Shown here piece after piece: positions 1,699-39,669 of a DNA stretch of 41,856 bases. Below the pieces are notes generated by a model. The model saw only the letters and a list, made by a program, of their open reading frames with translations. It had not been told where the DNA came from and ran no database searches. Both the position numbers and the translations under genes were made by a program. The DNA lies in IMG/VR virus record IMGVR_UViG_3300049825_000474, positions 1 through 41,856 of that record. One strand, written 5' to 3'. Source of the DNA: a virus. Every line of letters starts with the position of its first letter. Position 1 is the first letter of the stretch.

Positions 1699-2841
1699 AT
1701 GACGCCGACCACTGAAATACCCCAACAAGACCAAGCCGCACTAGTGCGCGCGCAGAGCGAAATGGCCCGCGTGCAGGCAGACCGCCAGCAGCTTGCCAAC
1801 GAGCGCGATTTGGCGCTTGCGCAAATCAGTCCGGAGTACGCCAGTATTCTCGCGCAGGAAAAGCGGTTTCAAACCCTGCAGCGGTACGCCGAGCTCATGG
1901 CCACGTCTGGCATGTTTGAAGAGAAAGTCCGCGTAAAGAACGGCGATGACTGGGACGACGTTGTAATCAGCGGAAACCAGGCGGTTGCCCGCGTGGCCGT
2001 GCGGATTATGCTGGGCGATTCGATGGGCTTTAGCGCCGTCGAATCCATGCAGGCGATTCACATTATAGAGAACCAGCCCTCTATCAGCGCCGCCGCCCGC
2101 GCTGCTCGCGTTGAAATGAAATACGGATTTGGTTGGGACATTGACTGGCATGAGCGCGACGGCGTTTGTGTCGGGTGTTCGCTCCACCTGAAGCACATCT
2201 CGAACAACAAGCCACTCCTGGATCCAAGCGGAAACCCTGTGGTGGTGAGCTTCCTGGAGTCGGACGCGAAAAAGCTCAAAACCAAGATTTGGGAGTATGA
2301 CAAGATCCTGAAAAAGCGTGTTCCGCGGGAAGGCTCGGCGCTCGACAAAGACAATTGGAAGAACACGCCGCGCAATATGTATTTCAGCCGCGCGGTTTCT
2401 AATGCCCAGCGCTGGTACGCGCCGGCCGCGTTGAACGGCGCCCCGATTCCAAGCCGCGAAGAAGCGATGGACGCGACCTATGAGGACTTGACCAACGAGC
2501 CAGAGGCACCGAAGAAACTACAAGAGCCGCGCCGCATGGCGACCGCCGCGCCCCAGGCCGAGACGAAGCAGCCAGAAGTTGAAACGAAACAGCCCAAACC
2601 AGAGACGGAACCCGCCGCCCCCGAGATGCAGGAACCAGCCAAGGAGACGCCCACCGACCCCAACGCGCGGATAGACACCAAGCAGGCAACTGCCATCCGT
2701 AACGCCTTTTTAAACCAAGGCTGGAACCAGCGAGCCTCCTTGGAGGTTTTGAAATCCTTCGGCGCAAAGGCCGTGATGGACGTCCGCGCTGACAAGTTCG
2801 AGGCCATCATGGCCGAATTGACCAAAGGAGATAGCCAGTGA
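1699..2841 (+). CDS. recT: RecT-family single-strand annealing protein
   Basis: This 380-residue protein would pair complementary single strands during phage recombination. The central region matches the RecT pattern. A motif around residues 114-145 (GFSAVESMQAIHIIENQPSI) resembles the family's G-x-s-x-x-A-...-I-x-V-I-x-G-K-P block. Near residues 220-240, WKNTPRNMYFSRAVSNAQRW matches the family's W-x-x-x-P-R-x-M-x-x-x-R-A segment. Residues 1-60 are coiled-coil-like. After a Pro/Glu/Lys-rich linker (about 265-330) comes a small helical C-terminal domain. The partner nuclease is probably the PD-(D/E)XK protein at 39910, in the same arm across the window join. The next gene overlaps by GTGA. Confidence 0.85.
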   Translation: MTPTTEIPQQDQAALVRAQSEMARVQADRQQLANERDLALAQISPEYASILAQEKRFQTLQRYAELMATSGMFEEKVRVKNGDDWDDVVISGNQAVARVAVRIMLGDSMGFSAVESMQAIHIIENQPSISAAARAARVEMKYGFGWDIDWHERDGVCVGCSLHLKHISNNKPLLDPSGNPVVVSFLESDAKKLKTKIWEYDKILKKRVPREGSALDKDNWKNTPRNMYFSRAVSNAQRWYAPAALNGAPIPSREEAMDATYEDLTNEPEAPKKLQEPRRMATAAPQAETKQPEVETKQPKPETEPAAPEMQEPAKETPTDPNARIDTKQATAIRNAFLNQGWNQRASLEVLKSFGAKAVMDVRADKFEAIMAELTKGDSQ

Positions 2842-3377
2842 TCGATTTTGAGGGATTTGAGAAGATACCCAGATTGCGGCGCGGTTGCGTCATTACTGAA
2901 AAAATAGACGGCACTAACGCGCAAATCCACATCACCGAGGATGGCGAGTTTATGGCGGGGAGCCGAACGCGATACATCACTGTCCAGGATGACAACTACG
3001 GCTTTGCACAGTGGTCCCAGGCCAACAAGGATGAGCTAATGAAATTGGGCCCCGGTCGCCACTTCGGCGAGTGGTGGGGATCTGGCTGTCAGCGCGGTTA
3101 TGGCTTGCAAAACGGAGAGAAGCGGTTCTCTTTGTTCGACGTGGGCCAGTGGAAAGATGCCGAACTCCCCCCGTGTGTGTCGCTTGTCCCCGTCCTGTAC
3201 GAAGGCGACTTCAGTATGTACGCAGTGGAAGCCGCGCTTGAGCAACTACGCAAAAGTGGTTCTGTTGCTTCGCCTGGGTTTATGAAGCCAGAAGGCATCA
3301 TTATCTACCACGCGGCTGCCCGGTGCATGTTCAAAGTGACGATTGAAAAAGATGAAGAACCGAAAGGCGGCAAGTAA
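2838..3377 (+). CDS. RNA ligase / nucleotidyltransferase family protein
   Basis: This 179-residue protein starts at a GTG overlapping the recT stop, with AAAGGAG upstream. It carries the covalent nucleotidyltransferase signatures: motif I E-K-I-D-G-T-N with the candidate adenylated lysine at residue 22, an S-R-T-R segment shortly after, F-G-E-W-W-G near residue 77, R-F-S-L-F-D-V, a late E-G-I-I-I-Y (motif IV) and F-K-V-T-I (motif V, lysine present). The size and order fit the RNA_ligase fold without an added C-terminal domain. Known relatives seal or repair RNA, and some act on DNA. The operon position between recT and an unknown protein suggests repair of host-damaged RNA or a role in recombination, which cannot be decided from sequence. 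Confidence 0.78.
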   Translation: MIDFEGFEKIPRLRRGCVITEKIDGTNAQIHITEDGEFMAGSRTRYITVQDDNYGFAQWSQANKDELMKLGPGRHFGEWWGSGCQRGYGLQNGEKRFSLFDVGQWKDAELPPCVSLVPVLYEGDFSMYAVEAALEQLRKSGSVASPGFMKPEGIIIYHAAARCMFKVTIEKDEEPKGGK

Positions 3378-11199: not shown

Positions 11200-14100
11200 C
11201 TAGACCACGAAATTAATAACGATCCCGCCTGCAACGACGCAACGCTGGCCCACCGGCTGCGTCCCTGTGACGCCGAAGCTATAAGCCCCTAGTCCAGTGT
11301 TCCACGTCGCAAATATACCAGCGCCGCAAGCATAGGCGGCGTTTGGCATCGAGATTCCAAAGCCAACGAACTGCCCAAGATTGTTGATCATAACATTGCC
11401 GGCGACCTTGAACCCCTGGGTGAAATTGGCCGAACCAGCTCCGGAGACGTTGCCATTTCCATCTGCTTGGAAATTGGAATTCGTGGTTTGGAAGGCGATA
11501 CTGGCACCACTGGCCCCGGACTGAATCACCCCGCCTGCGTTCGTGGTAACGCTTGTGAATGTGGCATTGCGGCTACCGTCAACGATAGTAACCGCTGCAA
11601 CTTGATACCCTCCAAGATGCACGTTCAAATCGCCGGTTTGGACCCGAACCTCCCCGCTAACGAAGAAACCGAGTTTCGCGTTTCCGCTGGTTTCATCAAT
11701 AATTTGGAGCGCCCCTGAGGCTGCAATCTTCAGGCTCCAATCTCGGGCTGTGGCAGCAGTCCTTTTCAGTGCGAAACTCTGCCCCCCATCGTTACGGACG
11801 CTTGACCAAGAGACAGCCGTCCCACCGCCATTCGGAATATTGACGGCATTCGCTGCGGCCGATGTTGTGTAGTATCCGAGAGTGGCCGACATGAAGCCAT
11901 CTACCTGAACGATCGCGCCGCTACCATTGTCTGCTGGCGCCGTCGCCCCGATATGCCAAGTGCCGGTTTCGTCAATGTTGGTTCGCTCTGCGACCCCAGC
12001 GCTCGATACCCCTGTTTGAAAACTCAACTTCGCGCCAGCGGAAGTTTTAAAGGAGGAAATTATAGCAAGCTGATCGAAGCTCGAACCATTGTGATAGCGG
12101 AATGAAAAGCCGCCTCCCTGCCGCCCGGTCGAGACGGCGGAAGGCGCGGCAAGCGTTCCGTTTGACACTTGGAAGATCACGAAACCGGAATGAGCGGAGC
12201 TGGCCGAGGATGCGACATTGTAGGAGTCGAGGAACCAAGAGCTTTGCTTCGATCGGTATGAGTCGATGTTCCCCGCCGGCTCCAGCGATAAGATATCTAG
12301 CGTGGCCTGTGGCGTGGCGTTATTTATGCCGACTCTGAAATTCACATTGTCGGCCGTGATCGGGAGGATTGAACCGCCCCCACCGACCAAATTGAAGTAG
12401 GCGCCACCGTTCACCGACATCTTGACCACGTGGCCGGTCGAGTCCATGGCCAAGCGCGCCTGCCCAGCTCCGGAGATCCCAGGCAGAACGTCCTCAACCA
12501 AGTTGATCGATTCGGTTGCGATGAGATATTTCCCGGTAACCCCACCCAGCGGCACGTTCACCGCGCTGGTGGCTGTGTTCGGGGAGTAAAACCCTTCCTC
12601 CGATTGGATGTAGGACGTGGCGACTACGAGGCCCGCAGTTCCCGTGTCGCCCGTGAGTGTGAGTTGCTTTGTTGGCGCATCCCATAGGCCGAAGCCAGCG
12701 AAAACGGCCCCGTTCTTATATTGCACCGAATGATTGACGCCGCCAGGAGTGCCCGTGCCACCAGTCTGCCAAACCGTGTCCTGTTCGTTGTAGACCACCG
12801 AAGCGCTGGAAGCATCTTTCGCAAACTCGCCCAGGTTGCCTACGCCGCGGATGTGGTTGTCGTACACCCGGTTGTCGGTGGTCGCATCGAACCCGCCGCC
12901 AATTTCCGCAATGCAGTAGTTGGCGCCTTCATAGAAAATGATGTTTCCGCGAACAATGGTTCCCTTGGTCCGCATGTCGAGCGAATAGAGCGCCACTGGG
13001 ACACCCGACGCGGTAGCCGGGTGGGTGATCAAAACCCCCAGCATGGAGCAATTTTCGGACTGGTTCAAGACGACAGCAGATGTCGTTTGGTCCGCAATGG
13101 AGCCGCCTAAGATGTCGATCCCGTACCCGCCGCCGTTCGCGTTGGTGTCGCCGGGCTGGATGCCCTTGGAGATAGTCCGGTTCGGCCCGCTGATTTGCGG
13201 CCCCAACACGGTACAGTTTCGCGCGCCGTCCAGGTCGACGGCAGCCACGCAATCGATCGTAGTCGGCTTGTACCGCACCTTTTCCGCATACCCGGCAGTG
13301 TCGAACGCCACCGAATAGGCCGCGATCAGGATGGCCTCAACCGGGGCATCTATGTCGGTTTGTGTGGTCATGCCGCCATCGCGCATCACGCCGGAGAATT
13401 CCCCGCCGAGGACATTGCCGATCATGAACACATCGAGCGCGAAATATTGCGCCTGGAAGTCGACCGCCTGCACGTCTTCATGGTGATTGGTCAAGCTAGT
13501 GGAGTGGAACCAGAAGCCATTGCCAGAAACCCGGTAGAAGCTGCAGCCGTTCGCCCGAATCTTCTTACACCCAATGTTTCCATTGTGGAAAATACAGCCC
13601 GTCCAGAAACCATAGTTCATATCGAGAGAGGAGGTCCCGACGTAGTTGGGTCGGCAATTCTCGCACCGTACTCTCTCATAGGTGATGTCGTTGCAGTCTT
13701 TGTGCCAGATCGAGTACCCGGCTGTGTGCCGAAAAACGATGTTCCTGAAGGTAATTCCGGTGATGCCTTCGCCGCCGATGCTGCTATCGCTGGTCAGCTT
13801 GGAATCTTCGGGCGAGTTGTCGAACAGCTCAGTAGACACGCCAGCGCCATAGAGCAGACGCACCGGAACCGTCCGGTTGCCTTCGATGTAGGCAACGCCG
13901 CCGTTGCAGACCACTGCTACATTGTCACCGCTGAACTTGATGCGGCGATCGCTTGCCACCGTGGCCCGCAGGTCCAAGGTTGTGCCCGCTTCGAGTTCCC
14001 AGGTAACCCCGCCCTTGAAATCGATTTGCGAGACGTCGACCACGTACACGCCAAATGGAAAGAACAGGGTGCCGCCGCCGAGAGAGTTAACCGCATCTGT

Positions 14101-14322
14101 GCCAGCCTGAATGGCCGCCGCGTCATTGGTGGAGCCGTCGCCCAGCGCCCCGAAGTCCTTGACGCTCAACCGGGCCGAGCCTTGCGTATTGGCCGCATCT
14201 GTGACCTGGGCCATCCAGCGCGCCATCGCCACCGAAGGAAGCGGTTCACCCTTGCCGAGCGCGTTATCGCGCATCTCAGTAATTGCTATGCGTGTGGGTG
14301 GGAGATCAACGCGACGGGCCAT
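11200..14322 (-). CDS. Tailspike with pectate-lyase-type beta-helix
   Basis: This is a 1040-residue protein. After a short N-terminal, probably particle-binding, segment (1-50), residues 52-95 (VKDFGALGDGSTNDAAAIQA, then GGGTLFFPFGVYVV) match the start of the pectate_lyase_3 / right-handed parallel beta-helix domain of tailspike depolymerases. The helix runs to about residue 500, with Asn/Gly turns and GI/NI ladders. The C-terminal half contains fibre-like Gly/Thr/Ala-rich blocks with repeated motifs (FYSPNTATSAVNVP, YYTTSAAANAVNIP). The protein should bind and perhaps cut host surface polysaccharide. No clear self-cleaving chaperone domain is seen at the end. A promoter and tRNA-like element lie just upstream. 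Confidence 0.88.
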   Translation of the reverse strand: MARRVDLPPTRIAITEMRDNALGKGEPLPSVAMARWMAQVTDAANTQGSARLSVKDFGALGDGSTNDAAAIQAGTDAVNSLGGGTLFFPFGVYVVDVSQIDFKGGVTWELEAGTTLDLRATVASDRRIKFSGDNVAVVCNGGVAYIEGNRTVPVRLLYGAGVSTELFDNSPEDSKLTSDSSIGGEGITGITFRNIVFRHTAGYSIWHKDCNDITYERVRCENCRPNYVGTSSLDMNYGFWTGCIFHNGNIGCKKIRANGCSFYRVSGNGFWFHSTSLTNHHEDVQAVDFQAQYFALDVFMIGNVLGGEFSGVMRDGGMTTQTDIDAPVEAILIAAYSVAFDTAGYAEKVRYKPTTIDCVAAVDLDGARNCTVLGPQISGPNRTISKGIQPGDTNANGGGYGIDILGGSIADQTTSAVVLNQSENCSMLGVLITHPATASGVPVALYSLDMRTKGTIVRGNIIFYEGANYCIAEIGGGFDATTDNRVYDNHIRGVGNLGEFAKDASSASVVYNEQDTVWQTGGTGTPGGVNHSVQYKNGAVFAGFGLWDAPTKQLTLTGDTGTAGLVVATSYIQSEEGFYSPNTATSAVNVPLGGVTGKYLIATESINLVEDVLPGISGAGQARLAMDSTGHVVKMSVNGGAYFNLVGGGGSILPITADNVNFRVGINNATPQATLDILSLEPAGNIDSYRSKQSSWFLDSYNVASSASSAHSGFVIFQVSNGTLAAPSAVSTGRQGGGFSFRYHNGSSFDQLAIISSFKTSAGAKLSFQTGVSSAGVAERTNIDETGTWHIGATAPADNGSGAIVQVDGFMSATLGYYTTSAAANAVNIPNGGGTAVSWSSVRNDGGQSFALKRTAATARDWSLKIAASGALQIIDETSGNAKLGFFVSGEVRVQTGDLNVHLGGYQVAAVTIVDGSRNATFTSVTTNAGGVIQSGASGASIAFQTTNSNFQADGNGNVSGAGSANFTQGFKVAGNVMINNLGQFVGFGISMPNAAYACGAGIFATWNTGLGAYSFGVTGTQPVGQRCVVAGGIVINFVV

Positions 14323-14347
14323 GTAGAGAGTTTAGCGGTATTGGGCA

Positions 14348-14419
14348 GGCCGACGGGATGGGATTCGAACCCATGAACCTCGAAGCTGTGGCGCTCACCG
14401 TTTTCGCCACCCATCGGCC
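14348..14419 (-). ncRNA. tRNA-like element (degenerate tRNA)
   Basis: Read on the minus strand, 72 bases fold as an outer 10-bp stem (GGCCGATGGG with CCCGTCGGCC, one G-U), a D-like arm (GGCG, 11-base loop with GG, CGCC) and a perfect T-arm (ATGGG, TTCGAAT loop, CCCAT). Between the two arms lies only ACAGCTTCGAGGTTC. The 5' side of an anticodon stem and a loop-like TTCGAGG are visible, but the 3' side and variable loop are missing. The 5' half resembles tRNA-Leu/Ser sequences. It is therefore not a functional standard tRNA as it stands: a decayed tRNA, an attachment-site relic or a structured leader. Confidence 0.6.
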
Positions 14420-14437
14420 CACCTGCAATTATTGGGA

Positions 14438-14466
14438 ATTATATACATGAGTCCCGACCCTCTTAA
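14438..14466 (-). promoter_or_regulatory. Sigma70-like promoter reading into the tRNA-like element and tailspike
   Basis: On the minus strand TTAAGA (14466-14461) and a perfect TATAAT (14443-14438) are 17 bases apart. The predicted start near 14431 is about 12 bases before the tRNA-like element and about 110 bases before the tailspike ATG. The box overlaps the end of the 45-residue gene. Confidence 0.55.
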
Positions 14467-14600
14467 CTCTTGCCACGTTTCGCCTTTTTCTTTTTACGGG
14501 GCCGCGCCTTCTTCTGCTTATCCTTTGGGCGATAAGACAGAACCATATCCGCGATCTGATCCAAGACGGGCGGCGTCCCATTCATCGGGTTATTATGCAT
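14463..14600 (-). CDS. 45-residue lysine-rich protein overlapping the gp10-like gene
   Basis: The ATG lies inside the last codons of the gp10-like gene (8-base overlap) and the stop is at 14463. Residues 1-25 (MHNNPMNGTPPVLDQIADMV and on) look like a short folded helix, and residues 26-45 are almost all Lys/Arg with KARPRKKKKAKRGK. The basic tail suggests nucleic-acid or acidic-protein binding. It is shorter than usual gene-calling cutoffs, but overlap coupling and composition support it. Function unknown. A second ATG at codon 6 is possible. Confidence 0.62.
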   Translation of the reverse strand: MHNNPMNGTPPVLDQIADMVLSYRPKDKQKKARPRKKKKAKRGKS

Positions 14601-16068
14601 CCTGGCGGATTTTCAGGTTAGCCCCGTTCACCGTGAGCGAGGCTCCCGCAGGGGACCAAAGAACATCAACGGCGAAGCCAGTTTGACCCGCTTGCCCAAG
14701 CTGCCGCCATTCGACCGTTCCATCAACCGGATTTGCTGCTTGCGTGTCGTAGGCAGCATCCCAGTTATTGCCGCCGTCGTAGCTCATCTTGAGCCCAGCC
14801 CCGAGAGGCCCGGAGCTGTCCCCAATTTGCTGATCGAGGCGGAATCTGTTGATACTGAAGCGGTCCCCTAAGTGGTACATCACGGGAGCAATACGGCGAC
14901 ATGTAAAGTTCGAGCCCTCATCGGCTGTTACTGTGGGATCGAGCTTGAAGATTTTCCCGTCACTGTAGCGCATGGCATAGTTTCTGCCCTGCCCAGCTCC
15001 AGATCCAGCGTCGACGCCCACCGAAACAAAGAAGGCCGGGGCCTCTCCCGCCGTGGCGTTGGTGACGACTTCGAGCCAGCACTTATATCGGAAGCTGTAC
15101 CAAAGATTGAAATTCCCGGTGCGGCTGTAGAGGCTGTAGAAGTTATGGCCGCCAATTTGGAACTTGGCCCCGAGTAGGTCATACATCGAGCTCGCCCGTT
15201 GAATTTTGAATTCAATCGCATGGGTGCTAATCCGATCTACCGTGCCAGTTCGCGCAACCATCACCTGCCCGAAACCCTCTTGACCGCGGGTGGCCATAAC
15301 CGAGCCAAGCTTGTTCTTGGCGATAGAGAACGGCGCGCCGATGCCTTCTTCGATGAATGCGTGCTGAATCTTTGCCAGCGCAAAGCCAGCCACGCCGGCG
15401 TTATAGAAAAAGCTGGTGGTCTCGCGCCCAGCCGCCATCAAAGTATCATCGTGCGCGGAAAGCGTCTGGATAACGTCCGGCGCATCCTCACGAGATGCGT
15501 AGTCCAGCGCCGCCCATGTGGTGAAGTCGTTCAGCCCCGATTGATGGATAACGTTTCCACCGCCAACCGCATAGGCGAATCCATCCAGGTAGCACATGGA
15601 ATAGAACGGAATTGGGGTGGTAACCGCGACTACGGCCGTTCCGTTCCACACATACAACTCTTCTGTCTGGGTATTGAGGATGGCCACCTGGGTCAACTGG
15701 ATGTTGGAGAAAACAATACATGGGGAGATTCCCGCATTGATATCTCCGCGCACTGTTACCGCCCCGCCTGAGCTGACGGTAAAGAACTTCGAGCCGGCGC
15801 AGCCAGCGAGCACATCGTAGGTTTTGACCGTGGCAATGGTCATGTTGAGCGAGAACAGGCCGCGGCCTTGCCCGATTCCAGGCGTTGCGAACGTGACAAA
15901 CCCAGGCCGCGCCACCATGTCTAACGGCTGATCTTTGCCGGTGCCCACTTCGTTCGCCTGGGGGTACAGATTGATCACGCGATCAATGCCGAGTGCGGCC
16001 TGTTGCGGTGTGCAATTGTAGCCGGGCCCGCAGAATCCTGGGTACGGGATTAACTTAGAGTTCTGCAT
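14593..16068 (-). CDS. Packaged DNA stabilisation / tail hub protein (P22 gp10-like)
   Basis: This 491-residue protein starts at the ATG at 16068 (MQNSKLIPYPG), inside the end of the upstream gene; the longer frame is rejected. It has the beta-propeller-like layout of the gp10/tail-hub family: an N-terminal segment with RVINLYPQ, repeated short beta blades, AALDYASREDAPDVIQTLSA, then the hallmark H-D-D-T-L-M-A-A-G-R-E-T-T-S-F-F-Y-N-A-G (family: G-R-x-S-x-E-x-F-x-N-x-G) and H-A-F-I-E-E-G-I-G-A-P. gp10 closes the portal after DNA packaging and supports the tail needle. The length is close to P22 gp10. Confidence 0.8.
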   Translation of the reverse strand: MQNSKLIPYPGFCGPGYNCTPQQAALGIDRVINLYPQANEVGTGKDQPLDMVARPGFVTFATPGIGQGRGLFSLNMTIATVKTYDVLAGCAGSKFFTVSSGGAVTVRGDINAGISPCIVFSNIQLTQVAILNTQTEELYVWNGTAVVAVTTPIPFYSMCYLDGFAYAVGGGNVIHQSGLNDFTTWAALDYASREDAPDVIQTLSAHDDTLMAAGRETTSFFYNAGVAGFALAKIQHAFIEEGIGAPFSIAKNKLGSVMATRGQEGFGQVMVARTGTVDRISTHAIEFKIQRASSMYDLLGAKFQIGGHNFYSLYSRTGNFNLWYSFRYKCWLEVVTNATAGEAPAFFVSVGVDAGSGAGQGRNYAMRYSDGKIFKLDPTVTADEGSNFTCRRIAPVMYHLGDRFSINRFRLDQQIGDSSGPLGAGLKMSYDGGNNWDAAYDTQAANPVDGTVEWRQLGQAGQTGFAVDVLWSPAGASLTVNGANLKIRQDA

Positions 16069-16288
16069 CGACCACCACGATTTTATGCTTAGGGCAAACC
16101 CAGGAAGCTGTCGGACCACTTCCAGCTAGCCCGCCAATGAACTGCCAGTCGCCGGATGGGCGCATAATGAGGGGGTGGGTGCCGATGTATGCCTGAATCT
16201 CCACCGCCCCGCAGTGGGAGCACTTCCAACTCACCCCAGTCGCCATATCCGAAGGGAGCATCATCAATGCCAACGTCTGGGCATCCAT
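16055..16288 (-). CDS. Small zinc-ribbon-like protein in the tail region
   Basis: This 77-residue protein has C-S-H-C near residue 23 and a later C-P-K-H near residue 65, so a CxxC...CxxH zinc site is plausible. The middle contains AYIGTHPLIMRPSGDWQFIG. It starts directly after the upstream gene stop and ends inside the next gene (14-base overlap), so translation is coupled. No family is recognised. Its place between the gp4-like and gp10-like genes suggests a minor tail or assembly component. Confidence 0.68.
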   Translation of the reverse strand: MDAQTLALMMLPSDMATGVSWKCSHCGAVEIQAYIGTHPLIMRPSGDWQFIGGLAGSGPTASWVCPKHKIVVVDAEL

Positions 16289-29144: not shown

Positions 29145-31348
29145 TGCGCCACCGGTTCAGGCTGCAAACGCGCCTGGTGCGATGCGAGATCGAGTTGCCG
29201 GTTATGCGCGAGTTCGGCCGAGATTTCATCCAGCCGCTTCGTAATCATCGCCATGGATGAAGACTGGTTCGCCGCAAATTCCGCCAAGAGCAGCTTGGTT
29301 TGCTCCTGGAGCATCACTCGCTCTTTGGCACCTTCGTTGGCTAACGCCTGCTTGTCGACGCCCGCCGACAACCGAGTAACGTCGGCCTGGAGCTTCTGCA
29401 CCACAACTTCGGCTTGCTTGAGTTGTTCGGCCTGCTGTGCTGCAATCTGGCTCACCTTGGCGAGCTTGCCCTTGCCGGATTCTTCATCTTGCGGATCGAT
29501 CACATCGGCGATAGCGTCCATGGCGGGCCCGCCGTCCCGGCTTCGAATCGCGGCGCCAACGAGCTCAGGCGCAATTGCCGGGTTGGATTGGATGGCCGCC
29601 GCGAGCGCTCCATTCTCCATGATTTGTTCGAGGAACCCGTCCGCGTCGTCCTTCAGTGAGTCCGCAGCCTTGCCCACGCTGATCGTTACGCTATGGTCTT
29701 CGGAGTATCCCAGGTCGATAGTGCGGGTTTCCTTGTTGCGTGGGTCTATGGCTTCGCGCCCGATGGTGAGGACGTGTTCCTTCTTGTCCGGGGTGATGGC
29801 CAGGAAGTCGCGCGGGTTTTCCTTGCTCACAAGATAGTCAAGTTGGTCATTCACGATTTTGTAGCCGCGCAACCGGCTCTTTTCGTAGGTGTCCACGAAG
29901 TGGGAGCCGCCCTGGTCGACGACATCTTGCATCTCTTCGAGCGCCTTGCCGGATTTGCTCTTATCGTGGAACAGCGCCGTGTTGATCATAGCCATGCCCA
30001 TCGCCGTTCCCACGTCACGGATCAGCGATTGCGCCATCATCTCCAGGGATTGAATAGCGCCAGGGTCGAACGAATCGCGAGACGGGGGCGGCAGCACGAT
30101 GTAGGAGCCGTCTGGGTTGCGCAGGTGTTCCAGTGTGGCCGAGTATTCCAGTACGTCGACGAATTTGCGGTGCGAGTTGCCCCAGTTTTCCTTCTGTTCC
30201 AGGGTTAGCTGGCCCACCACGGCCCGCGGCGCCGATACCGGAGCCATGCCGGCGAGGAGTAGTTGCTTGGACCGCACGTAGCAGAGCGCCAGGTACGCTT
30301 GCCGCGCGAGCCGGATCAGAGAGAGAATCTCGCGCCGGGTTTGGCCGCCGCGCTCGACAAAGCGCTGTTTTCCGAGCATGAGAATCAGCGGAATTTGCCG
30401 GGTGTCCCACGGCGTGGTCTCTAGAATTTCGTATCCGTTGGTAATGTACTGCGTCACCTTCGGGATGATTTCAAAGCGGTCGCCTGTGATATCGCCAACA
30501 AGGCCCATGCCGGGGCCGTTAGCCATGGGTGCCCAGAGCTGCTTGTTTACTATCTCCATTCCCTGGGATTTGATTTGAGAAGCGGGGACGTCGAGATCAT
30601 GCCCATGGATTGGCCGGCCGTCAGGCCCAACAAGTCCAGGAGTCTTTACAAACAGGAGCTTTTCTTTGGCCTTTTCGATGTTCCAGTATTCGCACTTGAC
30701 GACGTATTCGATGCCCTCTTGAGTCTGAAACCAATTCAGCGCATTAGTTGCTTCGGCGAGGTCAAATCCGATATGGGCTGAGCGTGCGCCGGTGAATTCA
30801 CGCTCGAATTCCTTTCGCGGTTGCAGGTACTCCACAAACGCATAGTTGGCGTCTGAGCCATCGACCTCAACAATGGATGGATCGAAGAGGACCTGCTTGC
30901 GGTTGGCAAATGAGCGGTATTTGATGTCCTGCTGCCGCGAGCCTGGCCGGTATTCCTTGGTGAGGCCGTAGACGCCGATGCCGGTTTCGATCATCGACGT
31001 ATAGGCGAGCAACGTGGCCGCTTGCGCGTTGCCCATGTAGTCGATGCCGCACATGATATCGCCGCGTGCAGCGGCGGAGAGCGCCGAGCCGGTGGCCGAA
31101 GCCTGGGACACCTTCGGCCCGCGCGGCTTGGAGAGCACCTGGTTGGAAATGCGGTTGACGTGCGAGCCTAGCTGGTCGACAGCAATCGGATCGTGCCCGT
31201 ACATGTCATTCCACGCCCGCTTGTCCTGCGGAGTGAAGGGGTCGCCATTAATGTAGCGCTGGTCAATGTCGCCCTGGTCGAAGTTCCACTTCCATTCGAG
31301 TTCGGCGAAACGCTTGCGTTGACGGAGTTCTTCGAGATCGACAGCCAT
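29141..31348 (-). CDS. Portal protein (P22-like)
   Basis: This 735-residue protein is close in size to the P22 portal (725). The N-terminus reads ELEWKWNFDQGDIDQRYING, then the family-like DHVxRIxNQ segment (GSHVNRISNQVL). Next comes GIDYMGNAQAATLLAYTSMI, then GVYGLTKEYRPGS and FDPSIVEVDGSDANYAFV. Long helices toward the C-terminus (about 590-735) form the barrel-like region (AQQAEQLKQAEVVVQKLQAD). Twelve copies form the DNA entry ring and dock terminase. It is located downstream of the terminase genes, though separated from them by a rightward island. Confidence 0.87.
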   Translation of the reverse strand: MAVDLEELRQRKRFAELEWKWNFDQGDIDQRYINGDPFTPQDKRAWNDMYGHDPIAVDQLGSHVNRISNQVLSKPRGPKVSQASATGSALSAAARGDIMCGIDYMGNAQAATLLAYTSMIETGIGVYGLTKEYRPGSRQQDIKYRSFANRKQVLFDPSIVEVDGSDANYAFVEYLQPRKEFEREFTGARSAHIGFDLAEATNALNWFQTQEGIEYVVKCEYWNIEKAKEKLLFVKTPGLVGPDGRPIHGHDLDVPASQIKSQGMEIVNKQLWAPMANGPGMGLVGDITGDRFEIIPKVTQYITNGYEILETTPWDTRQIPLILMLGKQRFVERGGQTRREILSLIRLARQAYLALCYVRSKQLLLAGMAPVSAPRAVVGQLTLEQKENWGNSHRKFVDVLEYSATLEHLRNPDGSYIVLPPPSRDSFDPGAIQSLEMMAQSLIRDVGTAMGMAMINTALFHDKSKSGKALEEMQDVVDQGGSHFVDTYEKSRLRGYKIVNDQLDYLVSKENPRDFLAITPDKKEHVLTIGREAIDPRNKETRTIDLGYSEDHSVTISVGKAADSLKDDADGFLEQIMENGALAAAIQSNPAIAPELVGAAIRSRDGGPAMDAIADVIDPQDEESGKGKLAKVSQIAAQQAEQLKQAEVVVQKLQADVTRLSAGVDKQALANEGAKERVMLQEQTKLLLAEFAANQSSSMAMITKRLDEISAELAHNRQLDLASHQARLQPEPVAQ

Positions 31349-39181: not shown

Positions 39182-39669
39182 AATACCACCTGACCACGAC
39201 ACTTGCCCGGCTGAAAGCCGCTGATCTGTGCGCGGAAGGCTACCGCAAGCTGGTCAAGTCCCTTCCGCCCAACTTCGACAAGGATGCGCCAATCAACCTT
39301 CTATCTATCCTGGAATCCAACGGGGCGAAAGATCTGGGATGGTGCCTTAACGCCAGGGTGACCATTCAGGACTCGGCCCCAGCGTGGGCGGAATACCAGC
39401 GGGTGCGCAACCCGGCGTTGGCTAACTTCGAGCGGGTGAAGGCCCCGGCGTGGGCGGAATACGAGCTGGTGAAGGCCACGGCGTGGGCGGAATACGAGCT
39501 GGTGCGCAAAACGGCGTGGGCGGAATACCAGCGGGTGCGCAAAACGGCGTTGGCTAACTTCGAGCGGGTGATGTACACGGCGTGGGCGGAATACGGGCTG
39601 GTGAAGGCCCCGGCGTTGGCGTCCATTCTGATGACCGAGGAGGATGCTTCTCTTGCCGCCACCGAATAG
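39178..39669 (+). CDS. 11-residue tandem-repeat protein
   Basis: This 163-residue protein has a helical N-terminal domain (LARLKAADLCAEGYRKLVKS, SILESNGAKDLGWCLNAR) like small phage proteins that end in L-W-C-L-R-A. Residues about 68-148 are seven and a half 11-residue units, (P/T)-A-W-A-E-Y-x-x-V-(R/K)-x with variant PALANFERVKx. The 33-bp units are nearly identical in DNA. An 11-residue period with spaced aromatic and aliphatic residues suggests right-handed or straight amphipathic coiled helices. It may bind lipids, membrane or itself. It is followed by an overlapping gene at 39644. Confidence 0.8.
   Translation: MKYHLTTTLARLKAADLCAEGYRKLVKSLPPNFDKDAPINLLSILESNGAKDLGWCLNARVTIQDSAPAWAEYQRVRNPALANFERVKAPAWAEYELVKATAWAEYELVRKTAWAEYQRVRKTALANFERVMYTAWAEYGLVKAPALASILMTEEDASLAATE
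39379..39620 (+). repeat. 33-bp tandem repeats in the 11-residue repeat gene
   Basis: There are about seven and a half units of 33 bp. Most contain GCGTGGGCGGAATAC; variants with GCGTTGGCTAACTTC encode the ANF form. Two unit types alternate in blocks, indicating duplication of multi-unit segments. Confidence 0.82.

Follow-up and report, generated by a model that had tools for sequence, protein, structure and literature searches.

On its minus strand, between a head-closure gene and a tailspike-like gene, the virus record analysed here (the window, a whole record of 41,856 bases) carries a genuine tRNA-derived sequence, its likeness to tRNA being beyond chance. All of its arms are intact except the anticodon arm, which lacks its 3' side. 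On balance, this element is probably a worn-out ordinary phage tRNA that has become a young tRNA pseudogene. Such decay is the simplest account, and a maintained tRNA mimic is its main rival.

The record is probably nearly complete, since the same 15-bp tandem repeat stands at both contig ends (7-458 and 41510-41856), and its late genes (portal, coat, head closure and tailspike) are P22-like. A gene for a RyR domain protein (PF02026; 10394-11125, minus strand) lies immediately downstream of the tailspike gene. Elsewhere in the window, an Rnl2-type RNA ligase (PF09414) is encoded at 2838-3377 on the plus strand, with 65% identity to the homologue of Rhizobium phage RHph_Y1_10 and 60% to those of Caulobacter jumbo phages, and a 33-bp tandem repeat array runs within a gene at 39349-39654.

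A tRNA core with a shortened anticodon arm

The element occupies a 140-base gap between the stop codon of a 45-aa ORF (14463) and the ATG of the next gene (14322), which is tailspike-like, as the original prediction had it. The features of this region, all on the minus strand, are as follows.

11200-14322, minus: tailspike-like gene, 1040 aa, N-terminal stretch pectate-lyase-like
14329-14334, minus: -10 box of leaderless type (TAAACT), 6 nt ahead of the tailspike ATG
14348-14419, minus: entire tRNA-like element with its 10-bp closing stem (acceptor plus a 3-bp extension), from sequence and fold
14350-14416, minus: tRNA core, Rfam tRNA match (RF00005) of 34.1 bits
14358-14374, minus: T-arm, ATGGG-TTCGAAT-CCCAT, intact
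14375-14390, minus: truncated anticodon/variable region, CACAGCTTCGAGGTTC, 16 nt
14391-14409, minus: D-arm region, TGGCGAAAACGGTGAGCGC, of the Leu/Ile type among phage tRNAs
14438-14466, minus: sigma70-like promoter match, TTAAGA-17-TATAAT, with a -35 box that overlaps the 45-aa ORF's stop codon
14463-14600, minus: basic ORF of 45 aa that shares 8 bases with the end of the head-closure gene
14593-16119, minus: head closure Hc3 gene, P22 gp10-like

When the covariance-model check proposed with the original prediction was run at relaxed settings, RF00005 matched positions 14416-14350 with 34.1 bits, above the curated cut-off of 29 bits for that family (E 3.8e-7 per 41.9-kb record; the runner-up reached 15.5 bits), and the scan found no other tRNA-like element in this genome. 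The element was also the top match when all 4227 Rfam families were compared with the window (E 0.0016). Neither ARAGORN nor the default (filtered) Rfam cmscan called it.

The perfect T-arm, D-like arm and 10-bp closing stem described beforehand are all present. In the T-arm (14374-14358) the stem has 5/5 pairs and encloses a tRNA-typical 7-nt TTCGAAT loop, while the D-stem has 3/3 pairs and is accompanied by U8, A14, G18G19 and A21 as in tRNAs. The closing stem pairs GGCCGATGGG with CCCGTCGGCC (14419-14348), with one G-U among its 10 bp; within it the 7-bp acceptor CGATGGG/CCCGTCG is paired at 7/7 positions, or 10/10 counting the flanks. At its 3' end the core has a discriminator G followed by CCT, instead of CCA.

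The 3' side of the anticodon arm is missing, again as claimed: just 16 nt separate the D-arm from the T-arm, compared with about 23 in phage tRNAs that share the same D-arm. Since the gap between the D- and T-arm anchor motifs is 19 here, and 26 is the commonest value among the same-D-arm matches listed, some 7 nt appear to have been lost. That this D-arm pattern marks real phage tRNAs follows from the 88 ARAGORN calls among the matches listed, 41 of them Leu and 17 Ile. A 5-bp anticodon stem with a 7-nt loop holding an anticodon is absent from the element; with that arm reduced to its 5' half, it cannot decode. The remnant could form a weak 4-bp mini hairpin (AGCU-UCGA-GGUU). A D-armless tRNA, with the present D-arm taken for the anticodon arm, was considered and dismissed, since the loop of that arm measures 11 nt. 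One point against a broken tRNA is that the predicted lowest-energy fold is a long hairpin of -35.1 kcal/mol, versus -30.6 for the cloverleaf, in a prediction that leaves modifications and tertiary contacts outside its scope.

Compared with the phage tRNA genes gathered in RF00005, the element is alike in its acceptor stem, D-arm, TTCGAAT T-arm, own promoter, intergenic position and score over the cut-off. It differs in its truncated anticodon arm and loop without a usable anticodon, in ending on GCCT rather than NCCA, and in being a single gene outside any cluster. Acceptor, D- and T-arms combined with a shrunken anticodon arm also recall mascRNA/menRNA (RF01684), which are made from a long RNA by RNase P/Z cutting; those RNAs are mammalian, however, and the match of the window to that family (14 bits) is at chance level, so that the likeness is an analogy of shape alone.

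Among the three origins originally proposed, the evidence most favours a broken phage-borne tRNA, through the RF00005 match together with the 7-nt deficit. A clean deficit of this size in an otherwise intact tRNA is also what a small local error in assembly or sequencing would give, had some bases of a complete gene dropped out of this metagenomic contig. But it is unlikely a priori that an error should fall exactly within one short hairpin, and we give this explanation very little weight.

Promoters of the element and of the tailspike gene

The promoter that the original prediction placed about 12 bases upstream was borne out as a sequence match at 14466-14438. TTAAGA-17-TATAAT is one of four matches in the genome at 10/12 positions, where about 0.7 would be expected per strand; its -10 box ends approximately 18 nt ahead of the closing stem, and the predicted start lies approximately 12 nt ahead of it. 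Such a placement suits a tRNA gene that stands by itself and has a short 5' leader, and the element is presumably transcribed.

The tailspike gene has a -10 box of its own. Across the genome, a TANNNT motif stands 5-8 nt (usually 6) ahead of the start codon in 11/38 genes, against 2.6-2.9% at random start codons, the count being approximate as the 38 gene starts are our own ORF choices. Examples of such leaderless-type starts on the minus strand are those at 31348, 23490, 16669 and 14322, and TAAACT recurs in four late genes. The frequency of the pattern suggests a host from a phylum rich in leaderless mRNAs, such as Deinococcota, Actinobacteria or similar: in Deinococcus-Thermus the same motif is found 6-7 bp ahead of the ORF in nearly one-third of D. 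radiodurans genes (PMC12340547), and the same leaderless arrangement is common in Actinobacteria (PMC3160421).

Because TAAACT-N6-ATG follows this genome's leaderless pattern, the tailspike mRNA probably starts at its own ATG, with the tRNA-like element upstream and outside any leader. The suggestion that the element forms a structured leader at the 5' end of the tailspike mRNA is thus disfavoured for the main transcript, as the TAAACT box lies between element and gene, although transcription reading through from the upstream promoter could still join the two. A related explanation is that RNase P/Z cutting at the element sets the level of tailspike mRNA, which would suit its position: a promoter precedes it, the gene follows, and nothing terminator-like intervenes. 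Against this stands the downstream box, of a kind found 5-8 nt ahead of the start in 11/38 genes versus a background of about 3%, and we consider such a processing or regulatory role improbable.

The attachment-site question and relatives of the phage

Integration is known to leave tRNA gene fragments, and partial tRNA copies are often left by mobile elements (PMC9897764). Such a copy of a host tRNA gene, persisting as an attachment-site relic, is one conceivable origin of the element. A six-frame search of the genome gave no match to tyrosine integrase (PF00589) or serine recombinase (PF00239), with another recombinase type conceivable, and PHROG scans found no integrase. The exact 3' match to host tRNA genes, a check named beforehand, did not materialize: a 24-mer of the T-arm plus acceptor (3' end) had 0 exact matches in about 85,000 GTDB genomes, a set outside which the true host may lie, and no exact 3' match was found in viral contigs. 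What the element shares with integration fragments is that an incomplete tRNA gene resides in a virus or mobile element. Those are end pieces, and an attP 3' fragment normally comes without the 5' half; the window element retains both ends, with acceptor and D-arm present, and lacks the middle. The missing integrase and missing 24-nt match make an attachment-site relic highly unlikely. We regard the evidence against it as strong but not final.

Close relatives of the phage were not found when viral contigs were searched with the head-closure, tailspike and coat proteins, nor were relatives carrying the element region. A terminase search of these contigs returned 80 loci, only three of which (L002, L014 and L044) share a recognisable portal and none of which extends to the tailspike region. 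The head-closure gene was not found, at the sensitivity used, in 25 terminase-locus records searched whole, and the head-closure alignment was too divergent for scanning. The fetched regions of named P22-like phages (L083-L091) contained no tRNA; phiAX1 alone among these phages has one anywhere, an intact tRNA-Val.

Shortened tRNAs in other phages and the fate of the element

A scan of all IMG/VR contigs with a pattern that joins this D-arm to a shortened middle gave six matches (L112-L117), as against more than 120 for the normal-length pattern, and anticodon-shortened forms thus appear to be rare overall. The T-arm looks intact in each of L112, L113, L115 and L117. In the last of these (L117:2793-2862) a perfect 5-bp anticodon stem bears a 4-nt loop, as if the anticodon triplet alone had been deleted. 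An anticodon-shortened tRNA with a similar D-arm was also found in an Acetobacteraceae genome contig (L119). A covariance model built from nine shortened tRNAs, among them the window element, whose own score there is no evidence, also recovers L113 and L119. Two further genome matches were rejected as chance: L118, whose stems do not match in sequence, and L120, which shares that fault and has a poor model score (16.3 bits).

The remaining two IMG/VR matches, L114 (Erwinia phage Y2) and L116, are homologous to one another, and the shortened element is carried by 14 Erwinia phage records. In the alignment of the Erwinia Loessnervirus (Chaseviridae) elements, 98.8% of cells are paired and 5/17 pairs are changed on both sides; none of 500 shuffles scored as high, and sliding the partners destroys the pairing. 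The shortened middle retains GCTGAAATGC in all of them, and the element is the only tRNA match in each genome. GJ1, a deeper member of the Chaseviridae, carries a tRNA-Arg; nothing in it matched the shortened form strongly. The Erwinia element (Y2, Berlingot, Calisson, Fifi44) has the same type of D-arm as that of the window, likewise keeps its acceptor and T-arms intact with the anticodon region shortened, and is also the sole tRNA match of its genome. The Erwinia element belongs to another phage family, shares sequence with the window at tRNA core positions only, and lies, conserved, in a 1.1-1.5-kb gene-poor stretch upstream of thymidylate synthase instead of standing upstream of a tailspike gene.

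That stretch, between the spanin and thymidylate synthase genes of Erwinia and coli Chaseviridae (L121-L126, L116, L269), has few or no annotated genes and many T-arm-like pieces, with weak alpha-tmRNA matches nearby. The Erwinia-type and coli versions are partly similar by eye; in Erwinia phages the stretch contains the shortened tRNA, and it could be a large structured RNA.

Conservation of the Erwinia element with compensated pairs indicates that phages can maintain a tRNA with a shortened anticodon arm; it makes a functional window copy more likely, without proving one. The open-licence papers searched gave no account of conserved phage tRNAs without an anticodon. A possible, if rather unlikely, explanation is a functional non-decoding mimic that would occupy or bait a tRNA-binding enzyme, for instance a synthetase, a processing enzyme or a tRNase of a defence system. 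Every arm but the anticodon arm is intact, the element has its own promoter match and is the only one of its kind in the genome, and shortened tRNAs with similar D-arms occur in L112, L113, L115, L117 and L119, besides the conserved Erwinia case. On the other hand, truncated forms are rare overall, and relatives of the window phage were not found. The broader proposal, that unrelated phage families keep an anticodon-stripped, tRNA-shaped RNA by selection as an enzyme mimic or bait, the window being one of several independent cases, we offer tentatively and consider rather unlikely.

The pseudogene that we prefer would have begun as an ordinary phage tRNA with a Leu- or Ile-type D-arm, from which about 7 nt were then lost in the 3' half of the anticodon arm. 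Expressed as a free-standing gene from its own sigma70-like promoter, its transcript would still fold an acceptor/T-arm helix and a D-arm and might remain a substrate of RNase P and RNase Z. With no decoding loop it would take no part in translation, and we infer that this young pseudogene, in the space that separates the head-closure operon from the tailspike gene, has no current function. Three observations weigh against decay: all remaining helices are intact, although a neutral pseudogene would soon lose them; tRNAs with a shortened anticodon arm turn up repeatedly in phages unrelated to one another; and Erwinia phages conserve a truncated tRNA of a similar kind, in which paired bases have changed in compensation.

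Even if the element is not functional, it shows that the sole tRNA of a phage may be unable to decode and that standard tools (ARAGORN, the filtered Rfam scan) miss it. If it is functional, phages would possess non-decoding tRNA mimics, and the conserved example in cultured Erwinia phages makes direct testing possible.
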